The position numbers and the translations under genes were made by a program. DNA of 64,000 bases from Armatimonadota bacterium (GTDB taxonomy: Bacteria; Armatimonadota; Fimbriimonadia; Fimbriimonadales; Fimbriimonadaceae). Position 1 is the stretch's first letter. Each line of letters begins with the position of its first letter. Below the pieces are notes generated by a model that saw nothing but the letters and a program-made list of their open reading frames with translations, made no database searches and was not told where the DNA came from. The stretch lies in assembly GCA_020438215.1 (NCBI GenBank), contig JAGQUX010000010.1, positions 1 through 64,000 of the forward strand. Direction: 5' to 3'. Positions 28,903 through 38,979 of the stretch are shown piece after piece.

Positions 28903-29649
28903 ATGAATCGAAACATCTACAACAAAGACGTTGCAGAGCTGTACGTTCAATCTTTTGGAAAGCAGTCCACCCTGGCAGGGGAGGCTGTCTTGCGCGTCAT
29001 CCAATCGATGGGATTGGAGGATGCCTTGGTCGTTGATCTTGGTTGTGGCCCGGGAACCATTGCTCGCCAAATTTCCGATGCCGGCCATCGGGTGATCGGG
29101 TGCGATATATCTCCGCACATGATTGCTTTAGCCAATGAGCATGCCCCAGAAGCAGATCTGAAATGCACCTCCTATATGGAGTTCTCGATTCCTCCCTGTG
29201 ACATAGTCATCGCGATTGGAGAAGTCTTTAGCTTCGATTCTGGGAACGAAGATCACTTCCAACTTCTGGAATACACATTCCAGAGAATTTACAAAGCCCT
29301 GAAACCCGGCGGTGTGCTGATTTTTGATGTCTCGACCATTGACAGCATGCCGGAGGATCCCATCGAATTCTATATCGAAGATCATGAAGATTGGTGCGGC
29401 ACTATCCAGGCAGATTTCGATTTTGAAAACAAGCGGACGCATAGAACCATCACAACCTTCAGGAAAGTGAATGGAGGCTATCGAAAGTCATCTGAAGAGC
29501 ATCACATGGTGATCTATGAAGCTTGGCAGATCAACCAAGCTCTCCAGAATGCCGGATTTATGGTCACCACCTCTCGCAGCATTGACCAATATCAGCTAGT
29601 CAATGGCTATACATCCTTTTGGGCGAAGAAGAAGAGTGAATATGAGTGA
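28903..29649 (+). CDS. Class I SAM-dependent methyltransferase, copy 1 of 3
   Basis: The 248-aa protein has a Rossmann-type methyltransferase core: motif I VVDLGCGPGT (about 45-54), motif II with the acidic Asp in IGCDISPHM, a FSI-type motif at C..DIVIAIGEV, and motif III LKPGGVLIFDVS. Two more genes with the same domain plan follow directly, and all three share the C-terminal FWA(K/R)K ending. The substrate is unknown. The next gene starts 8 nt before its stop. AT-rich relative to EF-G. Confidence 0.85.
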   Translation: MNRNIYNKDVAELYVQSFGKQSTLAGEAVLRVIQSMGLEDALVVDLGCGPGTIARQISDAGHRVIGCDISPHMIALANEHAPEADLKCTSYMEFSIPPCDIVIAIGEVFSFDSGNEDHFQLLEYTFQRIYKALKPGGVLIFDVSTIDSMPEDPIEFYIEDHEDWCGTIQADFDFENKRTHRTITTFRKVNGGYRKSSEEHHMVIYEAWQINQALQNAGFMVTTSRSIDQYQLVNGYTSFWAKKKSEYE

Positions 29650-30415
29650 TAAATATGAAATCTATGGCGAGGACTTTGCCAAGATTTATCATCTCAATTT
29701 CTCTCAGTCCTCGCGAGCAATTGCGAAGGCGCTTCTCAATATCATTAAAAGATATGAGCTTGAAGCTGTGCATATCGTTGATCTTGGTTGCGGGGAAGGC
29801 ACAGCGGCGAAAATGTTGATAGAAGCTGGATACGAAGTTTCTGGGTGCGATATTTCCCCACATATGCTTGCGATTGCACATGAGCAAGTTCCTGATGCCC
29901 AACTTATACTTGCTTCTAGCTTTGAGTACAAAATGCCTCAGTGCGACATTATCGTTGGTATTGGGGGCGCACTTAGTCACAACCCGAATCGGTGGAATCA
30001 GCTCGAACATTTGACTCAGCTGGAGTATTTTTTTGAGAGAGCACATCGTGCTTTGTCTCCTGGAGGACTCCTGATTTTCGATTTGCCGACCATGAATACG
30101 CTTCCAAGTCATGATCGCCTGCGCGCAGGGCAACACTATGAGAATTGGTCTTATATGCAGGATGTGACAATTGACTTGGAACACTGTGAAGCTCAACGCC
30201 ACATAACTGTGGCTACGCGTATTGATGATGGCGCACTCTTTCGGTTGAGCCGGGAAAAGCATAGGCTCACTCTTTTTGAAACTTGGCAAATTACAGATAA
30301 ATTACATCCTGTTGGATTTGTCACTACTGAATCATCACGAATCGAAGAGTACAAAATGCTGACAGGTCATCAGCTGTTTTGGGCACGCAAACCAATTGAG
30401 GAAAACTACACTTAG
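29642..30415 (+). CDS. Class I SAM-dependent methyltransferase, copy 2 of 3
   Basis: The 257-aa protein keeps the same scheme as copy 1: IVDLGCGEGT, GCDISPHML, CDIIVGIGGAL and SPGGLLIFDLPT, ending FWARK. I start at the ATG at 29642, which overlaps the stop of copy 1 by 8 nt (ATGAGTGA), rather than at an upstream codon lying in the first gene. The GEV after the beta-4 strand of copies 1 and 3 is GGA here, so the substrate pocket may differ. The substrate is unknown. Confidence 0.83.
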   Translation: MSDKYEIYGEDFAKIYHLNFSQSSRAIAKALLNIIKRYELEAVHIVDLGCGEGTAAKMLIEAGYEVSGCDISPHMLAIAHEQVPDAQLILASSFEYKMPQCDIIVGIGGALSHNPNRWNQLEHLTQLEYFFERAHRALSPGGLLIFDLPTMNTLPSHDRLRAGQHYENWSYMQDVTIDLEHCEAQRHITVATRIDDGALFRLSREKHRLTLFETWQITDKLHPVGFVTTESSRIEEYKMLTGHQLFWARKPIEENYT

Positions 30416-30522
30416 TTTATGAAATTTGCGTGAAACGGCACAAATATTGTTGGTTTGCTGAGCAGGAAATCATATAACATATTAATTATGGGCGAAGCAG
30501 AGGTGCTGACGCTAAGTTTGTA

Positions 30523-31296
30523 ATGCCAGATCATATTTACGGAAGTAAGGTGGCGCAGATTCACTCTGCGGCATTTACTCAACTTGCTAGGGGAGCGGCG
30601 GTAGCCGTCAACAAGGCGTTAGATTTTGTAAACAAGCAGAATGCCTTGATTTTTGAATGCGGAGTTGGAGATGGAACAACCGCAGCTAATTTGGTGCGCG
30701 CGGGCCACCGTGTTATTGGTGTCGATCAGTCGCCAGATATGATAGACCTTGCTAGGAAGCGGGTTCCTAATGCTGAATTCATTGAAGCGACTTGCTACAA
30801 ATTTGATATTCCTAAAGTCGAAGTAGTGCTTGCCGTTGGCGAAGTGCTTTGTTATCGCAATTCTGGACACAATCATCCAGACTGTGTATACGAATTCTTC
30901 GCCAAAGTATATAAGGCTTTAGAGCCTGGCGGAATATTTATTTTTGATATAGTAACTTTAGATCGGATTCCAAACCCTAACCCAATGCAAACATTTGCTC
31001 AGCACGGGGAAGTGGCAATGGCTGTTGAAACGACTGGAAATATAGAGAACCGGTCTCTGCGCAGGGATGTCACGGTCTTTGAAGGGGACGGCGAATCGTA
31101 TCACAAGGTCAACGAGAGTCACGAGCTCTATCTATTCGACAAAGACGAAGTGATCTCGGAATTGAAGAAGCTAGGATTCTCGTGCACAACCACCCTTCGA
31201 TATGCCGATTTTGATCTGTTCCCAGGTTTGGTCGCAATATGGGCGAGAAAGCCAGAGCAGGGCGAGTCCCAGGTTCAAACGAACCTTGTGCCATAA
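30523..31296 (+). CDS. Class I SAM-dependent methyltransferase, copy 3 of 3
   Basis: The 257-aa product is the most diverged copy. Motif I reads IFECGVGDGT (Asp-Leu-Gly-Cys replaced by Glu-Cys-Gly-Val), followed by GVDQSPDMIDLA, VVLAVGEVLCY and EPGGIFIFDIVT, with the same WARKP end. The changed motif I keeps the Gly pattern, so SAM binding is still likely. A 107-nt gap separates it from copy 2 and contains ATATAACAT, which could be a separate -10 element. Its end lies next to the rplJ leader. Confidence 0.83.
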   Translation: MPDHIYGSKVAQIHSAAFTQLARGAAVAVNKALDFVNKQNALIFECGVGDGTTAANLVRAGHRVIGVDQSPDMIDLARKRVPNAEFIEATCYKFDIPKVEVVLAVGEVLCYRNSGHNHPDCVYEFFAKVYKALEPGGIFIFDIVTLDRIPNPNPMQTFAQHGEVAMAVETTGNIENRSLRRDVTVFEGDGESYHKVNESHELYLFDKDEVISELKKLGFSCTTTLRYADFDLFPGLVAIWARKPEQGESQVQTNLVP

Positions 31297-32579: not shown

Positions 32580-32616
32580 GCAGTTCTCACTCTTGTTAGT
32601 GGGAACTGCCTTTTTT
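32580..32616 (+). terminator. Rho-independent terminator of rplJL
   Basis: GCAGTTCTCACT (32580-32591) and AGTGGGAACTGC (32598-32609) form a 12-bp stem with one G-U pair and a 6-nt loop, followed by T6 at 32611-32616. It contains the stop codon of the convergent minus-strand gene at 32596. Confidence 0.92.
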
Positions 32617-32943
32617 GTCGGTTTGGAAGTGGGCGTTCGGGGGGATACGCCAGTACCACCAGTTGTGTTCTTTTGTCCAGCCCCGGTCATCGGCATTGAA
32701 CTGTCCCCAAAGGCAATCTGTGTGCTCGGCTGTAGCGCGCATCAAATTCTTATCTGCCTCACCCAGCGTTTTGATCAAATCTTCGCTAATGAGTTCCTCT
32801 TCCACCGTGAGCTTGTCGTGGATGATTTGGCGAAGATCGAGGTCATTCATGTATTCATCCAGATCCGCAACCCCATTGCGACGAATCGATCGTGCAACTT
32901 CATCCCATTTTTCTATGAGCTGGTCAAGGGGCTTTGTTTTCAT
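32596..32943 (-). CDS. Candidate immunity protein for the adjacent nuclease-like protein
   Basis: The 115-aa soluble protein is acidic and helical at the start (PLDQLIEKWDEVARSI, DEYMNDLDLRQIIHD) and ends with W..EHNWWYWRIPPN. I remember similar short proteins, with an N-terminal EYxNDLDxRxII helix and a WWYxRIP end, next to polymorphic toxin nuclease domains, where they act as immunity proteins. Here it overlaps the 3' end of the membrane-anchored nuclease-like gene by 4 nt (ATGA), the coupling expected of a toxin-immunity pair. The role is inference. Its stop is inside the rplL terminator. Confidence 0.5.
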   Translation of the reverse strand: MKTKPLDQLIEKWDEVARSIRRNGVADLDEYMNDLDLRQIIHDKLTVEEELISEDLIKTLGEADKNLMRATAEHTDCLWGQFNADDRGWTKEHNWWYWRIPPNAHFQTDKKGSSH

Positions 32944-33392
32944 CTTCGCTTTTGACGTTCAAAGTATTCTATTCCATCATTCGGCTTGAAAAACGTTCGA
33001 ATTGTGAGATCTTCGTTATAGGCAATGAACTCGTTATGCTTCGTTTGGTACTTCACATAAGTATGGTCTTGCCGTTCAAAATACAAGACGACTGAGTTCT
33101 CGGGTGTGTCGCGGAGTTGTTGTGCTTTTCGCAAGTACTCATCTTTCGTGATTTTCCCAAACTCACTGCCGTGCTTTTCGTAGTGCTCATCCAAACTCCG
33201 CCTGCTCGTGAAGCCGATGTCGGGAAAGGTAGCAGGAAACACCTCGGTAAAAGGTGCGGTCTCTTTGATCTCAACAACTTTTGGTGGCGGTGACTTCTTC
33301 GGCGAAAAAACCACGAACAAGATGATCGCCACGGCGATAGCCGCAGTTGTGTAGAACCGTTGCTTCTCCGGCGGAATGAAAGGCTTCTTCAA
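32940..33392 (-). CDS. Membrane-anchored protein with a polymorphic-toxin-type nuclease-like domain
   Basis: The 150-aa protein has one membrane helix (about 13-29), a Pro/Lys linker (31-38) and a C-terminal domain of about 90 residues. That domain has the pattern LDEHYEKHGSEFGKITKDEYLRKA-, YFERQDHTYVKY and IRTFFKP..GIEYFE (His70, His74, Lys136). I recognise this as the pattern of a C-terminal toxin domain of the barnase/colicin D/EndoU-like nuclease group found in Rhs and CDI proteins. Here it stands alone on a membrane anchor rather than a large secretion scaffold. Followed by a candidate immunity gene with 4-nt overlap. Activity is untested. Confidence 0.5.
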   Translation of the reverse strand: MKKPFIPPEKQRFYTTAAIAVAIILFVVFSPKKSPPPKVVEIKETAPFTEVFPATFPDIGFTSRRSLDEHYEKHGSEFGKITKDEYLRKAQQLRDTPENSVVLYFERQDHTYVKYQTKHNEFIAYNEDLTIRTFFKPNDGIEYFERQKRR

Positions 33393-33396
33393 AGCG

Positions 33397-34806
33397 TTAG
33401 TTTTGCTTCTTGCCCTGGTCGAGTTGAACCATCGTTCCCATCAAGGTCTTTTCTGCGCCGCCGACGTCTCCGCGTTGGATGGCTTGCATGGCTAGCGTGA
33501 CTTCTTGAGCTTCAGATCCGCGCCCATCTTGAACTAGGAGTGCTTGCGTTTTGGCTAAGTCTTGCAAGGCTTGGGCAGATGTGATCGCCTGCGTTTTCAG
33601 ACCCATGATTGTCTTTTCAACAACACGACCAGCGGCACTGATTTCGCTCGCGGCGGCGACTTTCGGATTGACGGGGCAGGAGAATTTCGCCGAATCCGAA
33701 GTGAATTCCATCATAAAGTCTACGGGGACGGTCTGTGTTCCACCAGATAGCGGCTGGAAGTGAATTTTGCCTTCAGCGACGCGGTATTGGCCGAGCGGGT
33801 GGTTCGGGAACTCTACGTCAAGAACGACCTGGATCGTGTTGCCTTGCTCTAGATCGGCGAGGTCAAGAGTAAAGGAATCACCATCGGGAAGGGGACTCAA
33901 GCCGGTGCATCCACGAAGGCTCACCCATCGCGCCAGCTTGACATCGAGCTTGAGGTTGGTGCTCATTGTCGACATCATCTTGCCGAGCTCGTTACGGAAA
34001 ATCTCGGGGATGAGGTGCGGCTCAGGGATGTAGTAGTAGTTACCACCGGCTTTCTTAGCCATTGCCGCCAGAAGCTCTTCGTTGTATTCCGGCCCAAAAC
34101 CGAGGAAGGTGATCGTAATGCCTTTTTGCTTTGTGTCGCCTGCGTGCTGGACGAGGGGATGGAATTCCTTGATGCCAGCGGTGGGTTCGCCATCGGTGAG
34201 GACGACCATTCGCGTCACGCGACCTGATTCACCTAGCATCTGTTGAAGCTGTTGTGATCCGAGCGTGATTCCGTCGTACAGGTTGGTGGTGTAGCCGGGC
34301 TGGAGTTGAGCAATACCGTTCTTGACGGCTTGTCGGTCGGTCACACGCTGAGGAGCCATCAGCACTTCAACGATTTCATCAAAGACAACGATCGAGAGCA
34401 CATCGTTCGGGCTGAGAAGATCGACAAGCTGGTTGCATGCCTGTTTCGCGTAGTCAAGCGGCGCGCCTTCCATACTGCCTGATCGGTCAATCACCAAGCA
34501 AAGATTGAGCGGAGCCCGGGCTCCACCAGTGGCAACTCCGGGCAACCCCGGTTCGCGCGGAGCGGTGATTTCGAGCAAGAATTGCTCGCGGGCTGGCCCG
34601 TTCGCCATTGTAGCTTCGCGGCTAGCAGTCAATTCAAATGTGAGCGGCTGACTAGGAGACCATGCCTGTGTCCGATTCGGGTCGCCACCAGGAGGGGAAG
34701 TCATGGCTTGGGTGCGACCGAGGTCTGGCCCACCAATCATTGTGCGATTGGGATCAACTTGCGGCCCGCCGATGACGGTCTTGTTCGGATCAATAGGATT
34801 GCTCAT
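33397..34806 (-). CDS. VWA-domain protein with N-terminal Thr repeats
   Basis: The 469-aa soluble protein has four short repeats at its N-terminus: DPNKTV (Thr10), DPNRTM (Thr22), DLGRTQ (Thr32) and DPNRTQ (Thr46), two followed by IGGP. A von Willebrand A domain follows with an intact MIDAS (DRSGSM, Asp107, Ser109, Ser111), then a VIT-like beta-rich C-terminal part and a helical tail. The two genes just upstream on the same strand encode FHA proteins, which bind phosphothreonine, so the Thr repeats look like FHA ligands. No kinase is present in the window. Metal-dependent protein binding by the VWA is likely; the partner is unknown. Confidence 0.85.
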   Translation of the reverse strand: MSNPIDPNKTVIGGPQVDPNRTMIGGPDLGRTQAMTSPPGGDPNRTQAWSPSQPLTFELTASREATMANGPAREQFLLEITAPREPGLPGVATGGARAPLNLCLVIDRSGSMEGAPLDYAKQACNQLVDLLSPNDVLSIVVFDEIVEVLMAPQRVTDRQAVKNGIAQLQPGYTTNLYDGITLGSQQLQQMLGESGRVTRMVVLTDGEPTAGIKEFHPLVQHAGDTKQKGITITFLGFGPEYNEELLAAMAKKAGGNYYYIPEPHLIPEIFRNELGKMMSTMSTNLKLDVKLARWVSLRGCTGLSPLPDGDSFTLDLADLEQGNTIQVVLDVEFPNHPLGQYRVAEGKIHFQPLSGGTQTVPVDFMMEFTSDSAKFSCPVNPKVAAASEISAAGRVVEKTIMGLKTQAITSAQALQDLAKTQALLVQDGRGSEAQEVTLAMQAIQRGDVGGAEKTLMGTMVQLDQGKKQN

Positions 34807-34837
34807 AGTTCTTGCTCTCTCTTACTTATTCTAATAC

Positions 34838-36226
34838 TTACTCGACTTGGAAGGTGGATGTGCCAATTTGCACTGTGTCACCGGGATTCGCCGCCGCATT
34901 AGTGATGCGCTGACCATTGACAAAGGTTCCGTTTGTGCTACCGAGGTCATCCACCTGCACCCCAGTTGGGGTTTGGCTGATGCGGGCATGACGCCTAGAA
35001 ACTTGTGAATCGAAAGCTACTGGAATTGTAGGGAGTTCGCGTCCAATTTCCAGGGCACCCGACACAGGAAATCTTTGCCCAGTGAGTGGCCCGCTGACAC
35101 ACACCAGAGTGCGTCCGGCTGGTTGGGCTTGTGGTTGTGGGGAAACCGCCATTGTTGGGTTGCTTGATGTAACCGGTTGTTGAGGCTGCATCGGCTGTTG
35201 CATGGGTTGGGCTGGTTGCTGATGCATTGCCCCTTGTTGAACTGGATTGATGGGTTGCCCCATTCCGCTTCCGCCCACCATGACGCCCTTGGCTCTGGCT
35301 TCGTGAGCGCGTTGCGCGGCTCCTTGCTTCATCAAGAATTGCAATTGGAACCCGGCGATGTTGATCGTGTCGCCCGGGTTGAGCGGAGTCACTTGCCCGA
35401 CCTTTTGACCGTTGATCCCCACGCCCATTGGTGAACCAGCATCTTCGAGGAAGTAAGCCGCTCCTTGCTTGACAATGACAGCGTGCAGGGGAGCGACATT
35501 GGTATCTCCGAATAGAGGAACATGGGCGCGTTCATCTCGCCCGATATTTGTGCGAGTTGCGTCCACGGGCCATTCTTTGCCTTCGTTACGACCAAGGACA
35601 AGGCGAATCCACGCCTGACGCGTTGCGTTTTCAATCAAAGCGGTAAAGAGGCCAATCGTGAGCCCGAGAAGACATGCCAGAAGTGCGCGTGCGGGTCCAC
35701 CGATTTCCTCCGCACCTCCGACCCCACTCATCAACGGGCCGAGAACTGCTCCGATGGGATCGAACGCGAGTCCGCCGGCGAAACCGCCGATTAATCCCCC
35801 GACAGCTCCAGAGATAATGCTCCGAAGGGAGAACTGCGTTGAACCGATTGCGGCGCCAAGAAAAAGCCCGAGTGGAGCAAATGCAATTGTGCGCGGGATC
35901 ATGTGGAAGCCGGGTTGAGTTGCCCAGCCAGGAAACATCGCTTCTGAGATACCGCCGCCCAGAGAATAGCCAAACAATCCTCCAACTGCTCCGAGCACTG
36001 CGCCTAACAATCCAGAAAGCGCAATGTTTCGGATGCCGCCTTTGTTATAGCCTTGAAGCAAGCCAGCTCCCAAACCGATAGCACTGACAATCAGTAGAAC
36101 CATTCGTTGTTCGGCAGCGGCCCAATTCGTCGAATGGATGTTATCGGGCAAGAACGGCTCGGTAATGAGCCACGCGCAAAACGCGAACAGAGTGCAGACT
36201 AGCGCACGAAAGAAAACTCGCCCCAT
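34838..36226 (-). CDS. Polytopic membrane protein with two FHA domains
   Basis: The 462-aa protein starts with a glycine-zipper-rich membrane region of about six helices (residues 5-200). An FHA-like domain follows (about 205-300, with TNIGRD near 226), then a Gln/Pro/Met-rich linker (QQPAQPMQQPMQ), then a full FHA domain (373-462) with IGR (394), SRRH (410) and GSTNGT (429). The second domain has the residues that bind pThr peptides. It lies between the VWA gene (31 nt) and a second FHA gene (12 nt), so they form one operon, and the VWA repeats may be its ligands. Confidence 0.85.
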   Translation of the reverse strand: MGRVFFRALVCTLFAFCAWLITEPFLPDNIHSTNWAAAEQRMVLLIVSAIGLGAGLLQGYNKGGIRNIALSGLLGAVLGAVGGLFGYSLGGGISEAMFPGWATQPGFHMIPRTIAFAPLGLFLGAAIGSTQFSLRSIISGAVGGLIGGFAGGLAFDPIGAVLGPLMSGVGGAEEIGGPARALLACLLGLTIGLFTALIENATRQAWIRLVLGRNEGKEWPVDATRTNIGRDERAHVPLFGDTNVAPLHAVIVKQGAAYFLEDAGSPMGVGINGQKVGQVTPLNPGDTINIAGFQLQFLMKQGAAQRAHEARAKGVMVGGSGMGQPINPVQQGAMHQQPAQPMQQPMQPQQPVTSSNPTMAVSPQPQAQPAGRTLVCVSGPLTGQRFPVSGALEIGRELPTIPVAFDSQVSRRHARISQTPTGVQVDDLGSTNGTFVNGQRITNAAANPGDTVQIGTSTFQVE

Positions 36227-36238
36227 AAATCACTCAAC

Positions 36239-37447
36239 TCAAGTTTCATATCGGTACTGAATCGCGCCAAATTGAACTTGGTCTCCTGATTGTAGGACGG
36301 TGGGAGAGGCTATCTCGATTCCATTGACGTAGGTTCCGTTCGTACTTCCTTCATCGGAAACGGTAACAGAATCGCCAGAACGGGTCAATTTTGCGTGGAG
36401 TCGAGAGACGCTCGATTCACCTGTGATTGTCAATCCTGCATTCTCACGACCAACGGTGAGTTCACCTTCACTGAGGTTCACGGCAGTTCCATCGCTTCCC
36501 ACAAGCCGTGGATTCGCAGTAATAGGTGTGACCGCTGCAACAGCGGCTCCCGCATCGGATGGGGTGGGTGTCACTCCGCCGAGCTGGATCTTCTCAAGCG
36601 GTTTGTTTTGCGGTTCAACGGGCATCGCTCCAGTTGGGTCGGGAGGATTAGAAGCCTGGATTCCCGCTTGTTTGAGCGCGGCTTCAACCTTGGTTGTGTT
36701 GTTTTTGTAGTACCAATAGATGCCGTAGCCAATGCCGCCCACCAAGCCAAAGCCGATCAAATAATTGAACAGAACCGCCAGCGGAGAGCGAGTGGTTTTT
36801 GGCTCATCTTTCTCTTTGGAATCTGCTTTGGGGGCATCACCTTCGGTTGCCGTTGTGCCAACTGATGCAACTGGCTCAATGAAGTCAGGGGCACTAATTT
36901 CGATTTTGTGTGATGGCCCATCGGCAGGGACTGAGTGTAGTTCTGTGTCTGTCTGCTTGGTGTCGTTATCGTAGGAAAGCGAAATTTTTAGATCAGGATT
37001 GGGGAGGTTATAGAGGGTGATCTCAGCATTCTCTTTATCAAGCAGGTTGCGGGAGTTGGTGGTTGCTCCGATAGCGACAATGAGATTGACATTGTTCACC
37101 GGCCCTTTTGCATTCTTCACCGCGATGGTCACGCTGTAAACGCGTTTGAAGGCATCGGCTTTAGGAGCCCAATCCTTCGTCTTCATGATGTCAGCCAGAG
37201 AGGATTCGGCAACACGACCAGTTTGCGGATCGTGAGCATAGACAGTTGATGTGCTCGGATTTTCGGCGGTGGTGAACTCTAGCTCTTTGGTGTCACTGAG
37301 CGTAGATTTTGGCTTGGCGTAGTGATTGATCGAATCCGAAACCCAAATCTCGAAAGCGCCGTCGCGGGGCATGGTGACTTTGAAAGTCGAGTCTGCGAAC
37401 GAGACTACGGCTAATAGCCCGAGTAAAAATGCGGTGATTGCTCTCAC
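36239..37447 (-). CDS. Secreted/anchored protein with one C-terminal FHA domain
   Basis: The 402-aa protein has a signal peptide (about 1-18), an outside domain with beta character (about 20-190), a membrane helix (about 225-248), a Pro-rich stretch and a C-terminal FHA domain (about 317-402) with VGREN, SRLHA and GSTNGTYVNG. A type I membrane protein with an intracellular FHA would couple an envelope event to phosphothreonine binding. It is the first gene of the FHA-FHA-VWA operon and its start overlaps the nnr stop by 4 nt. Confidence 0.83.
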   Translation of the reverse strand: MRAITAFLLGLLAVVSFADSTFKVTMPRDGAFEIWVSDSINHYAKPKSTLSDTKELEFTTAENPSTSTVYAHDPQTGRVAESSLADIMKTKDWAPKADAFKRVYSVTIAVKNAKGPVNNVNLIVAIGATTNSRNLLDKENAEITLYNLPNPDLKISLSYDNDTKQTDTELHSVPADGPSHKIEISAPDFIEPVASVGTTATEGDAPKADSKEKDEPKTTRSPLAVLFNYLIGFGLVGGIGYGIYWYYKNNTTKVEAALKQAGIQASNPPDPTGAMPVEPQNKPLEKIQLGGVTPTPSDAGAAVAAVTPITANPRLVGSDGTAVNLSEGELTVGRENAGLTITGESSVSRLHAKLTRSGDSVTVSDEGSTNGTYVNGIEIASPTVLQSGDQVQFGAIQYRYET

Positions 37448-38979
37448 GATTCTGTGAGTTTAGCCCGAGCGGCGGACAACTGGAGTATCACATCGCGGGC
37501 AGTGAAGCCAATTGCACCAGTTTCTGCGGCGGCAAGGTCGCCAGCGAGCCCATGCCAGAACATCCCGGCGGCGGCGGCTTCGCAAGGCGGAATCTCTTGT
37601 CCTAGGAGCGTTGCAATGACTCCAGCGAGGACATCGCCCATGCCTGCGCTCGCCATCCCGGGGTTGCCGGTGGAGTTAACAAGACAGGGAAGTCCGGGCG
37701 CAGAAGCGAGGCTGTACGGCCCTTTCAAAATAATGGCCTTACCAAATTTTTCAACCGCCTCGCGGACAGAAGCAAAGCGATCGGCCTGAACTTCCGCAAT
37801 CGTGGAATGAAGCAAGCGGCTCATCTCGCCGGGATGAGGGGTGAGGACGCATTCGCAGTCCGGGAGCTGAACACCAAGGCTTACTGCGTTTAATGCATCG
37901 GCATCAATGCAGCTGGGGACATCCCAATCGCTCCAGACCTTGCTGAGAAAATCAACAACTTGTGGTTCGTGGGTCAAGCCAGGGCCAAAAAGCGCACCGT
38001 TGAACTTTGATTTCTGGGCAAGGACTAGATCAGCGGATTCTCGGGTTAGGATGCCGTTTTCTTCAGGAAGAGGCATCAAAACAGCCTCTGGGCAGTGGGT
38101 CATCACCGCATCACAAACCGAATCAATCGCGGCTACGGTGACCATCCCGGCTCCGCTCCGGATCGCGGCTTTGGCGGAAAGTGCCGCCGCACCCCGCATA
38201 GCATGAGAGCCGGCCACGATCAAGATATGCCCGTTTGCTCCCTTGTGCGAAGCGCGAAGTCGTTCGGGGATCACATTACAAACGCCGCAACCGTCTAAGA
38301 TCATGGCGTCAGTGGGTTCGCCCAGTAGCCGAGGCGGAAAACCGATGTGCTCAACTGTCCAATGGCCTGCGTGTTCGAGCCCAATCCCTTGGAAAAGGAA
38401 CGGCTTGGGATTCCCGAACGTGATTGTTCGCATCGCCCAGATGGATTCGCCTAGTTCGTCGCCACTATCGGTGTGGATACCGCTCGGGACATCAACCGCA
38501 ATGATGGGGACACCAGCCCGATTCATGGCACTGATTGCCTCAGCTGGTTTGCCTTGGATCATCCCTTCTGCGCCAATCCCGATGATTGCATCTACGAGGA
38601 CATCGTTCATGCCGAGGCATTCCATTTTCATCTCCCAGCGATCATCGCGGGGAAAGATGGGCATGAGCCCATAGGCTTGGAGTTGAAGGAGCTGGAGGCG
38701 GCATTCTTCACGAAGATCTGCCTCTTCCGCCGTCATTAAAACGGTGACGGTGAATCCACGTTCATGGGCTAGGCGAGCAACGACAAGCCCATCTCCGCCG
38801 TTGTTGCCTTTCCCGCAAACAACGGCAATCTTTCCGCCATCGGGGAGGAATTCCTGAACTGCTTGAAAGACAGCCAAACCCGCTCGTTCCATGAGAACGA
38901 TGGCTGGCATTCCATATTCTTCCGTTGCGCGCCGATCAAGCTCGCGGGAGTGTTCTGATCGTGATATCCACACAGACAA
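37444..38979 (-). CDS. nnr: Bifunctional NAD(P)H-hydrate epimerase/dehydratase
   Basis: The enzyme repairs damaged NADHX and NADPHX. The 511-aa protein has the epimerase (YjeF N) domain with ERAG, GKGNNGGDGLVVAR and a DVPSGIHTDSG segment, then the ADP-dependent dehydratase domain, with GSHAMRGAA-LSAKAAIRSGAG, LTPHPGEMSRL and NPGMASAGMGDVLAG. Full length is typical of the fused form. The first codon could be the TTG at 38979 or the GTG at 38973; the ribosome site is weak. It overlaps the FHA gene downstream by 4 nt, so it heads that operon. Confidence 0.92.
   Translation of the reverse strand: MSVWISRSEHSRELDRRATEEYGMPAIVLMERAGLAVFQAVQEFLPDGGKIAVVCGKGNNGGDGLVVARLAHERGFTVTVLMTAEEADLREECRLQLLQLQAYGLMPIFPRDDRWEMKMECLGMNDVLVDAIIGIGAEGMIQGKPAEAISAMNRAGVPIIAVDVPSGIHTDSGDELGESIWAMRTITFGNPKPFLFQGIGLEHAGHWTVEHIGFPPRLLGEPTDAMILDGCGVCNVIPERLRASHKGANGHILIVAGSHAMRGAAALSAKAAIRSGAGMVTVAAIDSVCDAVMTHCPEAVLMPLPEENGILTRESADLVLAQKSKFNGALFGPGLTHEPQVVDFLSKVWSDWDVPSCIDADALNAVSLGVQLPDCECVLTPHPGEMSRLLHSTIAEVQADRFASVREAVEKFGKAIILKGPYSLASAPGLPCLVNSTGNPGMASAGMGDVLAGVIATLLGQEIPPCEAAAAGMFWHGLAGDLAAAETGAIGFTARDVILQLSAARAKLTES

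Follow-up and report, generated by a model that had tools for sequence, protein, structure and literature searches.

The window analyzed here, the first 64,000 nucleotides of contig JAGQUX010000010.1 from an Armatimonadota bacterium, carries on its minus strand an operon-like run of four genes, NNRD, FHA-A, FHA-B, and VWA, with intergenic gaps of -4, 12, and 31 bases (Table 1). The genome measures 2.64 Mb at 99% completeness, and the relatives nearest to it in our search belong to the Fimbriimonadaceae (phylum Armatimonadota). The original prediction for this DNA had recognized an FHA/FHA/VWA operon, which the closely spaced reading frames bear out; the upstream NNRD gene, encoding an NAD(P)HX epimerase/dehydratase, is probably a housekeeping hitch-hiker. 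We computed the anatomy, conservation, gene linkage, joint presence or absence, and fold matches of the proteins, and we consider it likely that the operon supplies half of a phylum-wide phospho-threonine switch, comprising a Ser/Thr kinase, two proteins tagged with threonine repeats (VWA and a zinc-ribbon FHA protein, ZFHA), FHA domains as readers, and a PP2C phosphatase as eraser. We found no description of the operon in the literature, and such an FHA/VWA/ZFHA phospho-switch is apparently undescribed.

The VWA protein begins with the tail MSNPIDPNKT(10)VIGGPQVDPNRT(22)MIGGPDLGRT(32)QAMTSPPGGDPNRT(46)QAWS, which the structure model predicts to be disordered (residues 1-50; predicted local distance difference test, pLDDT, 45-49). 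Four DPN(K/R)T(V/M/Q) units had been counted in it; the description holds for Thr10, Thr22, and Thr46, but Thr32 sits in DLGRTQ. The three DPN units are written with different synonymous codons (GATCCGAAC, GATCCCAAT, and GACCCGAAT), and it is therefore the peptide that is kept, not the trace of a recent DNA duplication. Across the phylum, the residue following DPx(K/R) is threonine in 168/169 instances in VWA and 72/74 in ZFHA (240/243 together) and never serine, so that the conservation in orthologues on which the earlier proposal had staked itself was indeed found. Such exclusiveness fits the known preference of FHA domains for phosphothreonine (pThr) over phosphoserine (PMC6509490). The broader pattern [KR]T[QVMTIAL][AMILVTG] occurs 129 times in the orthologue tails and 4.1 times (sd 1.9) in shuffled tails, a comparison that ignores the relatedness of the orthologues and serves as a guide only. 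The number and spacing of the repeats vary among orthologues, which is typical of short linear motifs. Judged by these sequence comparisons, the tail repeats are real and under selection. The motif is also confined: in-frame DPN(K/R)T occurs genome-wide three times in VWA, three times in ZFHA, and once in ribosomal protein L2, with no further motif-bearing clients beyond VWA and ZFHA in this genome, and among the matches listed for 31 relatives, repeat clusters fall only in VWA and ZFHA genes.

ZFHA (297 amino acids) is encoded on another contig of the same genome (C47; VWA lies on C11), so the partner genes are not adjacent here. It starts with MTDPNKTQLGAPPVVDPNKTMIGTPIDPNRTIMGAP, a tail bearing three repeats, followed by a four-cysteine zinc ribbon and two FHA domains. 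The ribbon cysteines (49/52/63/66) are present in 50/50 orthologues with the spacing CX2CX10CX2C, and the ribbon matches Pfam weakly; the binding residues of both FHA1 and FHA2 are invariant in the 50 orthologues. Adjoining ZFHA is a PP2C phosphatase gene, whose product scores 230.2 bits against the Stp1/IreP model NF033484 (cut-off 230). The genome has two Pkinase matches, on contigs C32 and C39, and none in the 64-kb window, as the statement that no kinase lies nearby had implied. Only the C32 kinase (C32:50407-52158; L009:5405-7159) retains intact Hanks-type catalytic motifs (VAVK, HRD, and DFG); its N-terminal kinase domain is followed by a transmembrane segment and then by a C-terminal region that presumably lies outside the cytoplasm. 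The C39 protein (L010:5409-7169) is a PASTA protein having a kinase fold without the VAIK lysine, the HRD-K-N set, or DFG, and is by its sequence features a probable membrane pseudokinase. The activation loop of the C32 kinase, EPNITMDGQVFGT, is close to the repeat DPNRTMIGG and conserved in the family. We considered a covariation of loop and repeat, which was unsupported when the loops of families f3 and f4 and of the outgroup were taken into account; family f3 combines DPN tails with an EQS loop.

Gene order in relatives joins these dispersed parts. Outside the window's taxonomic order, the Fimbriimonadales, 14 distinct loci have adjacent VWA, ZFHA, PP2C, and kinase genes that all point the same way (in one of them, L053, with a 0.7-kb gap), and five (L045, L046, L047, L050, and L164) show the full series NNRD-FHA-A-FHA-B-VWA-ZFHA-PP2C-kinase. 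In the window's own family the system is split into three pieces, with VWA beside FHA-A/FHA-B and away from ZFHA, and in families f3 and f4 of the same order the kinase alone is missing from the locus; the kinase-free window is a derived state of this lineage. In the kinase tree, a 52-row clade (97/99) unites the kinases of the operons with their Fimbriimonadales counterparts, separate from the majority of the phylum's remaining kinases, and the C32 kinase is nested inside; the clade includes two long-branch rows (L194 and L206) whose placement is unsure. Since VWA, ZFHA, PP2C, and kinase adjoin in relatives and the orthologue in this genome is recognizable, the outside kinase that had been postulated can be identified, by gene linkage, as the C32 kinase. 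The earlier proposal had perceived a real system and partly guessed its logic; none of kinase, phosphatase, and second tagged protein is encoded within the window. Three of the records with Armatimonadota-type loci are titled Methanoregulaceae archaeon or Actinomycetota (L033, L051, and L059), and these labels of metagenome-assembled genomes are probably wrong.

The four core genes also come and go together. Among 80 good genomes (completeness >=90%, contamination <=5%), scored with presence thresholds that were set after the values were seen (VWA 1e-60, ZFHA 1e-20, PP2C 1e-50, and kinase 1e-60), 68 have all four genes, six have three (G033, G045, G047, G069, G077, and G080), no genome has just one or two, and six lack all four (G036, G054, G092, G096, G097, and G098). 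The genomes G036 and G054, of 1.5 Mb and from one genus, contain no FHA domain whatever and no FHA-B.

Both membrane proteins of the operon retain the pThr-binding residues, as had been claimed for them, and both have membrane segments. FHA-A begins with a hydrophobic segment, continues with a beta-rich domain (20-185) and a transmembrane helix (222-249), and ends in an FHA domain. In a fold search, the matches listed for the FHA-A model were FHA matches only, with none for the beta domain (about 20-185), which is predicted to be extracytoplasmic and may act as a sensor. FHA-B has a glycine-rich, multi-segment membrane region followed by a degenerate FHA domain, a linker, and an intact FHA domain; the original prediction did not mention that FHA-B has two. 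The FHA-A/FHA-B pair is encoded away from the VWA-ZFHA-PP2C-kinase core in G091 (C88) and G065. A fourth FHA protein of the genome, of 174 amino acids with an acidic N-terminus containing EVETSTGEV, is encoded on contig C86 (L012:5982-6506), and short FHA proteins like it are present in several relatives. Intact-looking FHA domains number five: those of FHA-A, FHA-B (FHA2), ZFHA (FHA1 and FHA2), and the small C86 protein.

Beyond its tail, VWA is modeled as a beta-sandwich split by the vWA domain and a C-terminal four-helix bundle. The residues of the metal ion-dependent adhesion site (MIDAS) are intact in 77/77 orthologues, and Thr399, Thr420, and Thr454 of the bundle are invariant in a 39-row alignment. 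Two of these lie in motifs resembling that of the tail, EKT(I/V)MG (Thr399) and EKTLMG (Thr454), in the region where ArnB of Sulfolobus is phosphorylated; by analogy with ArnB they could be extra phosphosites, or they could be structural. The best solved match of the VWA profile is 8s05_A (2.5e-16), in a tie with an inter-alpha-inhibitor vWA domain of smaller coverage, and 8s05_A is also the top Foldseek match of the model (5e-26). The entry 8s05 is the Sulfolobus ArnAB complex of the zinc-finger FHA protein ArnA and the vWA protein ArnB (PMC12852372). VIA-align superposed the model on 8s05_B over 371 residues (53-466; Z 33.0, root-mean-square deviation 3.8), and the FHA region of ZFHA matches ArnA (8s05_C, 2e-7; 5a8i, 2.7e-7). 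The ArnB fold is not specific by itself, because it is widespread and the Catenulispora vWA protein 4fx5 ties with 8s05 in fold (Z 32.3). The Pfam family ArnB_C (RHB) has no match in 39 VWA orthologues, though the fold aligns through residue 466, and 2/39 show weak TerF-like vWA matches. On plasmids of Deinococcus and of cyanobacteria, relatives of VWA are encoded next to MerR regulators, without FHA or kinase genes.

Table 1. Coordinates of the operon genes and their features in the window.
Feature	Position	Strand	Evidence or remark
NNRD, NAD(P)HX epimerase/dehydratase, most upstream operon gene	37444..38979	-	Same place across the phylum
FHA-A, 402 amino acids	36239..37447	-	Open reading frame; 4-base overlap with upstream NNRD
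FHA-A FHA domain	36266..36457	-	R334, S348, H351, N370 invariant in FHA-A alignment
FHA-B, 462 amino acids	34838..36226	-	Open reading frame; 12 bases from FHA-A
FHA-B inner FHA domain	35357..35548	-	R230 kept; canonical Ser and Asn lost
FHA-B C-terminal FHA domain	34862..35047	-	R396, S410, H413, N432 invariant in 54/54
VWA protein, 469 amino acids	33397..34806	-	Open reading frame; 31 bases from FHA-B
VWA repeat 1, DPNKT (Thr10)	34777..34791	-	>=90% conserved, 39-row alignment
VWA repeat 2, DPNRT (Thr22)	34741..34755	-	Thr in 74/75 aligned rows of 77 orthologues
VWA repeat 3, DLGRT (Thr32), no DPN unit	34711..34725	-	Tail sequence
VWA repeat 4, DPNRT (Thr46)	34669..34683	-	>=90% conserved, 39-row alignment
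vWA domain, residues 101-270	33997..34506	-	MIDAS D107, S109, S111, T174, D205
C-terminal four-helix bundle, residues 381-464	33415..33666	-	EKT(I/V)MG (Thr399), KTQ (Thr420), EKTLMG (Thr454) conserved

Elsewhere in the window, two small open reading frames (150 and 115 amino acids; 32596-33392) follow VWA on the same strand almost without a gap; the former has a transmembrane segment and was not found at orthologous loci. At 28903-31296, three similar genes resembling S-adenosylmethionine-dependent methyltransferases stand in tandem (248, 270, and 257 amino acids).

Gene linkage, kinase orthology, the confined motif, the invariant FHA residues, joint presence and absence, and the ArnB-like fold together lead us to the phospho-threonine switch. 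In the proposed mechanism, the membrane Ser/Thr kinase C32 would phosphorylate VWA and ZFHA on threonines of their disordered N-terminal tails, with the shared motif (D/E)PN(K/R)T(Q/V/M)(A/I/L/M) as the candidate target. The phosphorylated tails would be bound in the cytoplasm by the FHA domains of ZFHA; the membrane proteins FHA-A and FHA-B may also bind them and could keep VWA and ZFHA tethered to the membrane, and the PP2C encoded beside ZFHA would reset the phosphorylation. As repeated tails would meet several FHA domains, binding would be multivalent, and assembly should track the degree of phosphorylation. Several points weigh against this scheme. Phosphorylation, FHA-tail binding, the pairing of a given FHA domain with a given tail, and any output are proposals from sequence. 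The motif is no proven kinase consensus, and the kinase loop EPNITMDGQ resembles the repeat, yet loop and repeat do not covary. The mapped phosphosites of ArnB lie in its C-terminal helix bundle, not in an N-terminal tail (PMC12852372). Gene dispersal in the Fimbriimonadales weakens the linkage argument there, and the joint losses represent few independent events, two of the six genomes sharing one genus.

An alternative to which we give somewhat less than even weight is an ArnAB-like soluble switch, in which ZFHA partners VWA via the zinc ribbon and an FHA domain clamps onto a pThr of the tail or the helix bundle, FHA-A and FHA-B belonging to a different pathway with nothing but the kinase in common. 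Such a division would account for the locus at which VWA and ZFHA adjoin without FHA-A/FHA-B upstream (L162), the pair lying elsewhere in that genome (G091, C88), and it draws further support from the ArnB-like fold, the ArnA-like CX2CX10CX2C spacing (PMC12852372), and the invariant bundle threonines, which recall the ArnB phosphosites; it is at odds with the window's family, which keeps VWA with FHA-A/FHA-B and not with ZFHA, and with the five outgroup loci that hold all genes in one operon. The opposite emphasis was that of the original prediction, in which phosphorylated VWA is brought to the envelope mainly by FHA-A and FHA-B. Operon order, the intact FHA residues of both membrane proteins, and their transmembrane segments are in keeping with it, but it omits ZFHA, which bears the repeats as well and lies nearer to VWA in relatives, and we regard it as rather doubtful. 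Because FHA-A and FHA-B can be encoded apart from the core, soluble ZFHA is no less likely to be the partner of VWA; recruitment of VWA to the membrane is possible and would rank second to VWA-ZFHA pairing.

A single ZFHA chain combines tail repeats with a pair of intact FHA domains, which also recalls GarA/OdhI-like self-binding, in which the phosphorylated ZFHA tail would occupy its own FHA domain and the VWA tail would compete for the site; in DgcB and OdhI, the N-terminal pThr tail is indeed bound by the protein that carries it (PMC6733907). Three repeats and two FHA domains equally suit multivalent binding between molecules, however, and we judge self-binding unlikely. It is highly improbable that the tails are unphosphorylated and DPN(K/R)T serves as another linear motif, for instance in targeting or ligand binding, given that threonine is never replaced by serine, that the motif is confined to the FHA-linked pair, and that kinase and PP2C genes are linked to it. 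Taking the phospho-threonine switch further, the repeats might act as a multivalent "phospho-currency," with the kinase building and PP2C dissolving a membrane-attached polymer or condensate, a phospho-scaffold on an ArnB/Sec23-like core. ZFHA with several tags and two readers, VWA with several tags, and the membrane readers FHA-A and FHA-B prompt this idea, which is speculative and quite unlikely to be correct. The role of ArnAB raised the idea of a connection with type IV pili, for which we found no case: all 12 genomes tested, whether or not they have the module, contain T2SSE genes, and these are fewer (4 versus 9-15) only in the reduced genomes G036 and G054.

For bacterial Hanks-type kinases, substrate, reader, and eraser can seldom all be named; here, genome comparison names candidates for each, along with exact candidate phosphosites, in a phylum of which very few species have been cultured. 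Parts of the module recur in known systems. The actinobacterial PknA/PknB-PstP-FhaA/FhaB locus likewise encodes a membrane kinase, a PP2C, and FHA proteins together. The FHA and kinase domains described here score partially against the FhaB/FipA and PknB models, below the curated cut-offs (FhaB/FipA NCBIfam equivalog: ZFHA 103.9 and FHA-B 103.6 bits, cut-off 125), whereas that locus is not known to have a vWA protein or Thr-repeat tails and the active kinase here lacks PASTA domains. The PpkA-PppA-Fha pathway of type VI secretion systems (T6SS) has kinase, PP2C, and FHA protein as a set; ZFHA scores 94.4 bits against TagH/Fha TIGR03354 (cut-off 120.25), and no T6SS genes occur in the loci examined. 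In the GAP1-N2 conflict neighborhoods of actinobacteria, kinase, PP2C, and stand-alone vWA genes are adjacent, without a zinc-ribbon/FHA partner or repeat tail in the parts of that account consulted here (PMC7159879); the operon holds no conflict-system effector genes. GarA/OdhI and DgcB share an N-terminal pThr tail as FHA ligand (PMC6733907), and differ in having a single FHA domain, another output (2-oxoglutarate dehydrogenase or diguanylate cyclase), and no vWA partner; the score against the OdhI NCBIfam equivalog is below its cut-off (68.7 versus 200 bits). The FHA ligand of Bdellovibrio DgcB, EKpTSIV, has lysine at -1 and hydrophobic residues at +2/+3 (PMC6733907), of which the VWA repeat NKTVIG shares the lysine and the hydrophobic +2.

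The comparison that reaches furthest is with ArnA-ArnB of Sulfolobus, an archaellum-regulatory module with the kinases ArnC/ArnD and PP2A (PMC6509490, PMC12852372, PMC7472852). Unphosphorylated, its partners bind loosely via the zinc finger; once ArnC phosphorylates ArnB, they bind tightly via FHA and pThr, and PP2A opposes this (PMC12852372, PMC6509490, PMC7472852). Both systems feature a split beta-sandwich vWA protein with a helix bundle (profile and fold searches agree on it as the top PDB match), a zinc-finger-plus-FHA partner of CX2CX10CX2C spacing, encoded adjacently in relatives here, and a Hanks-type kinase with a Ser/Thr phosphatase. The module described here differs in being bacterial, in the two FHA domains of ZFHA, in the repeated Thr tails on both partners, and in its two further membrane FHA proteins; its phosphatase is a Stp1-type PP2C instead of PP2A, and its kinase, encoded in the same operon in relatives, is a transmembrane protein with an N-terminal kinase domain, whereas ArnC has N-terminal OB/TPR and a C-terminal kinase domain. 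As phosphatase and kinase differ in kind, we do not file the module as an ArnA-ArnB member. The 2026 ArnAB study noted ArnB-like folds in bacteria, mostly outside multi-phosphorylation processes (PMC12852372). By analogy, the Armatimonadota module resembles ArnA-ArnB in parts and plan, which suggests a bacterial counterpart of the zinc-finger/FHA and ArnB-fold switch that controls motility in Sulfolobus.

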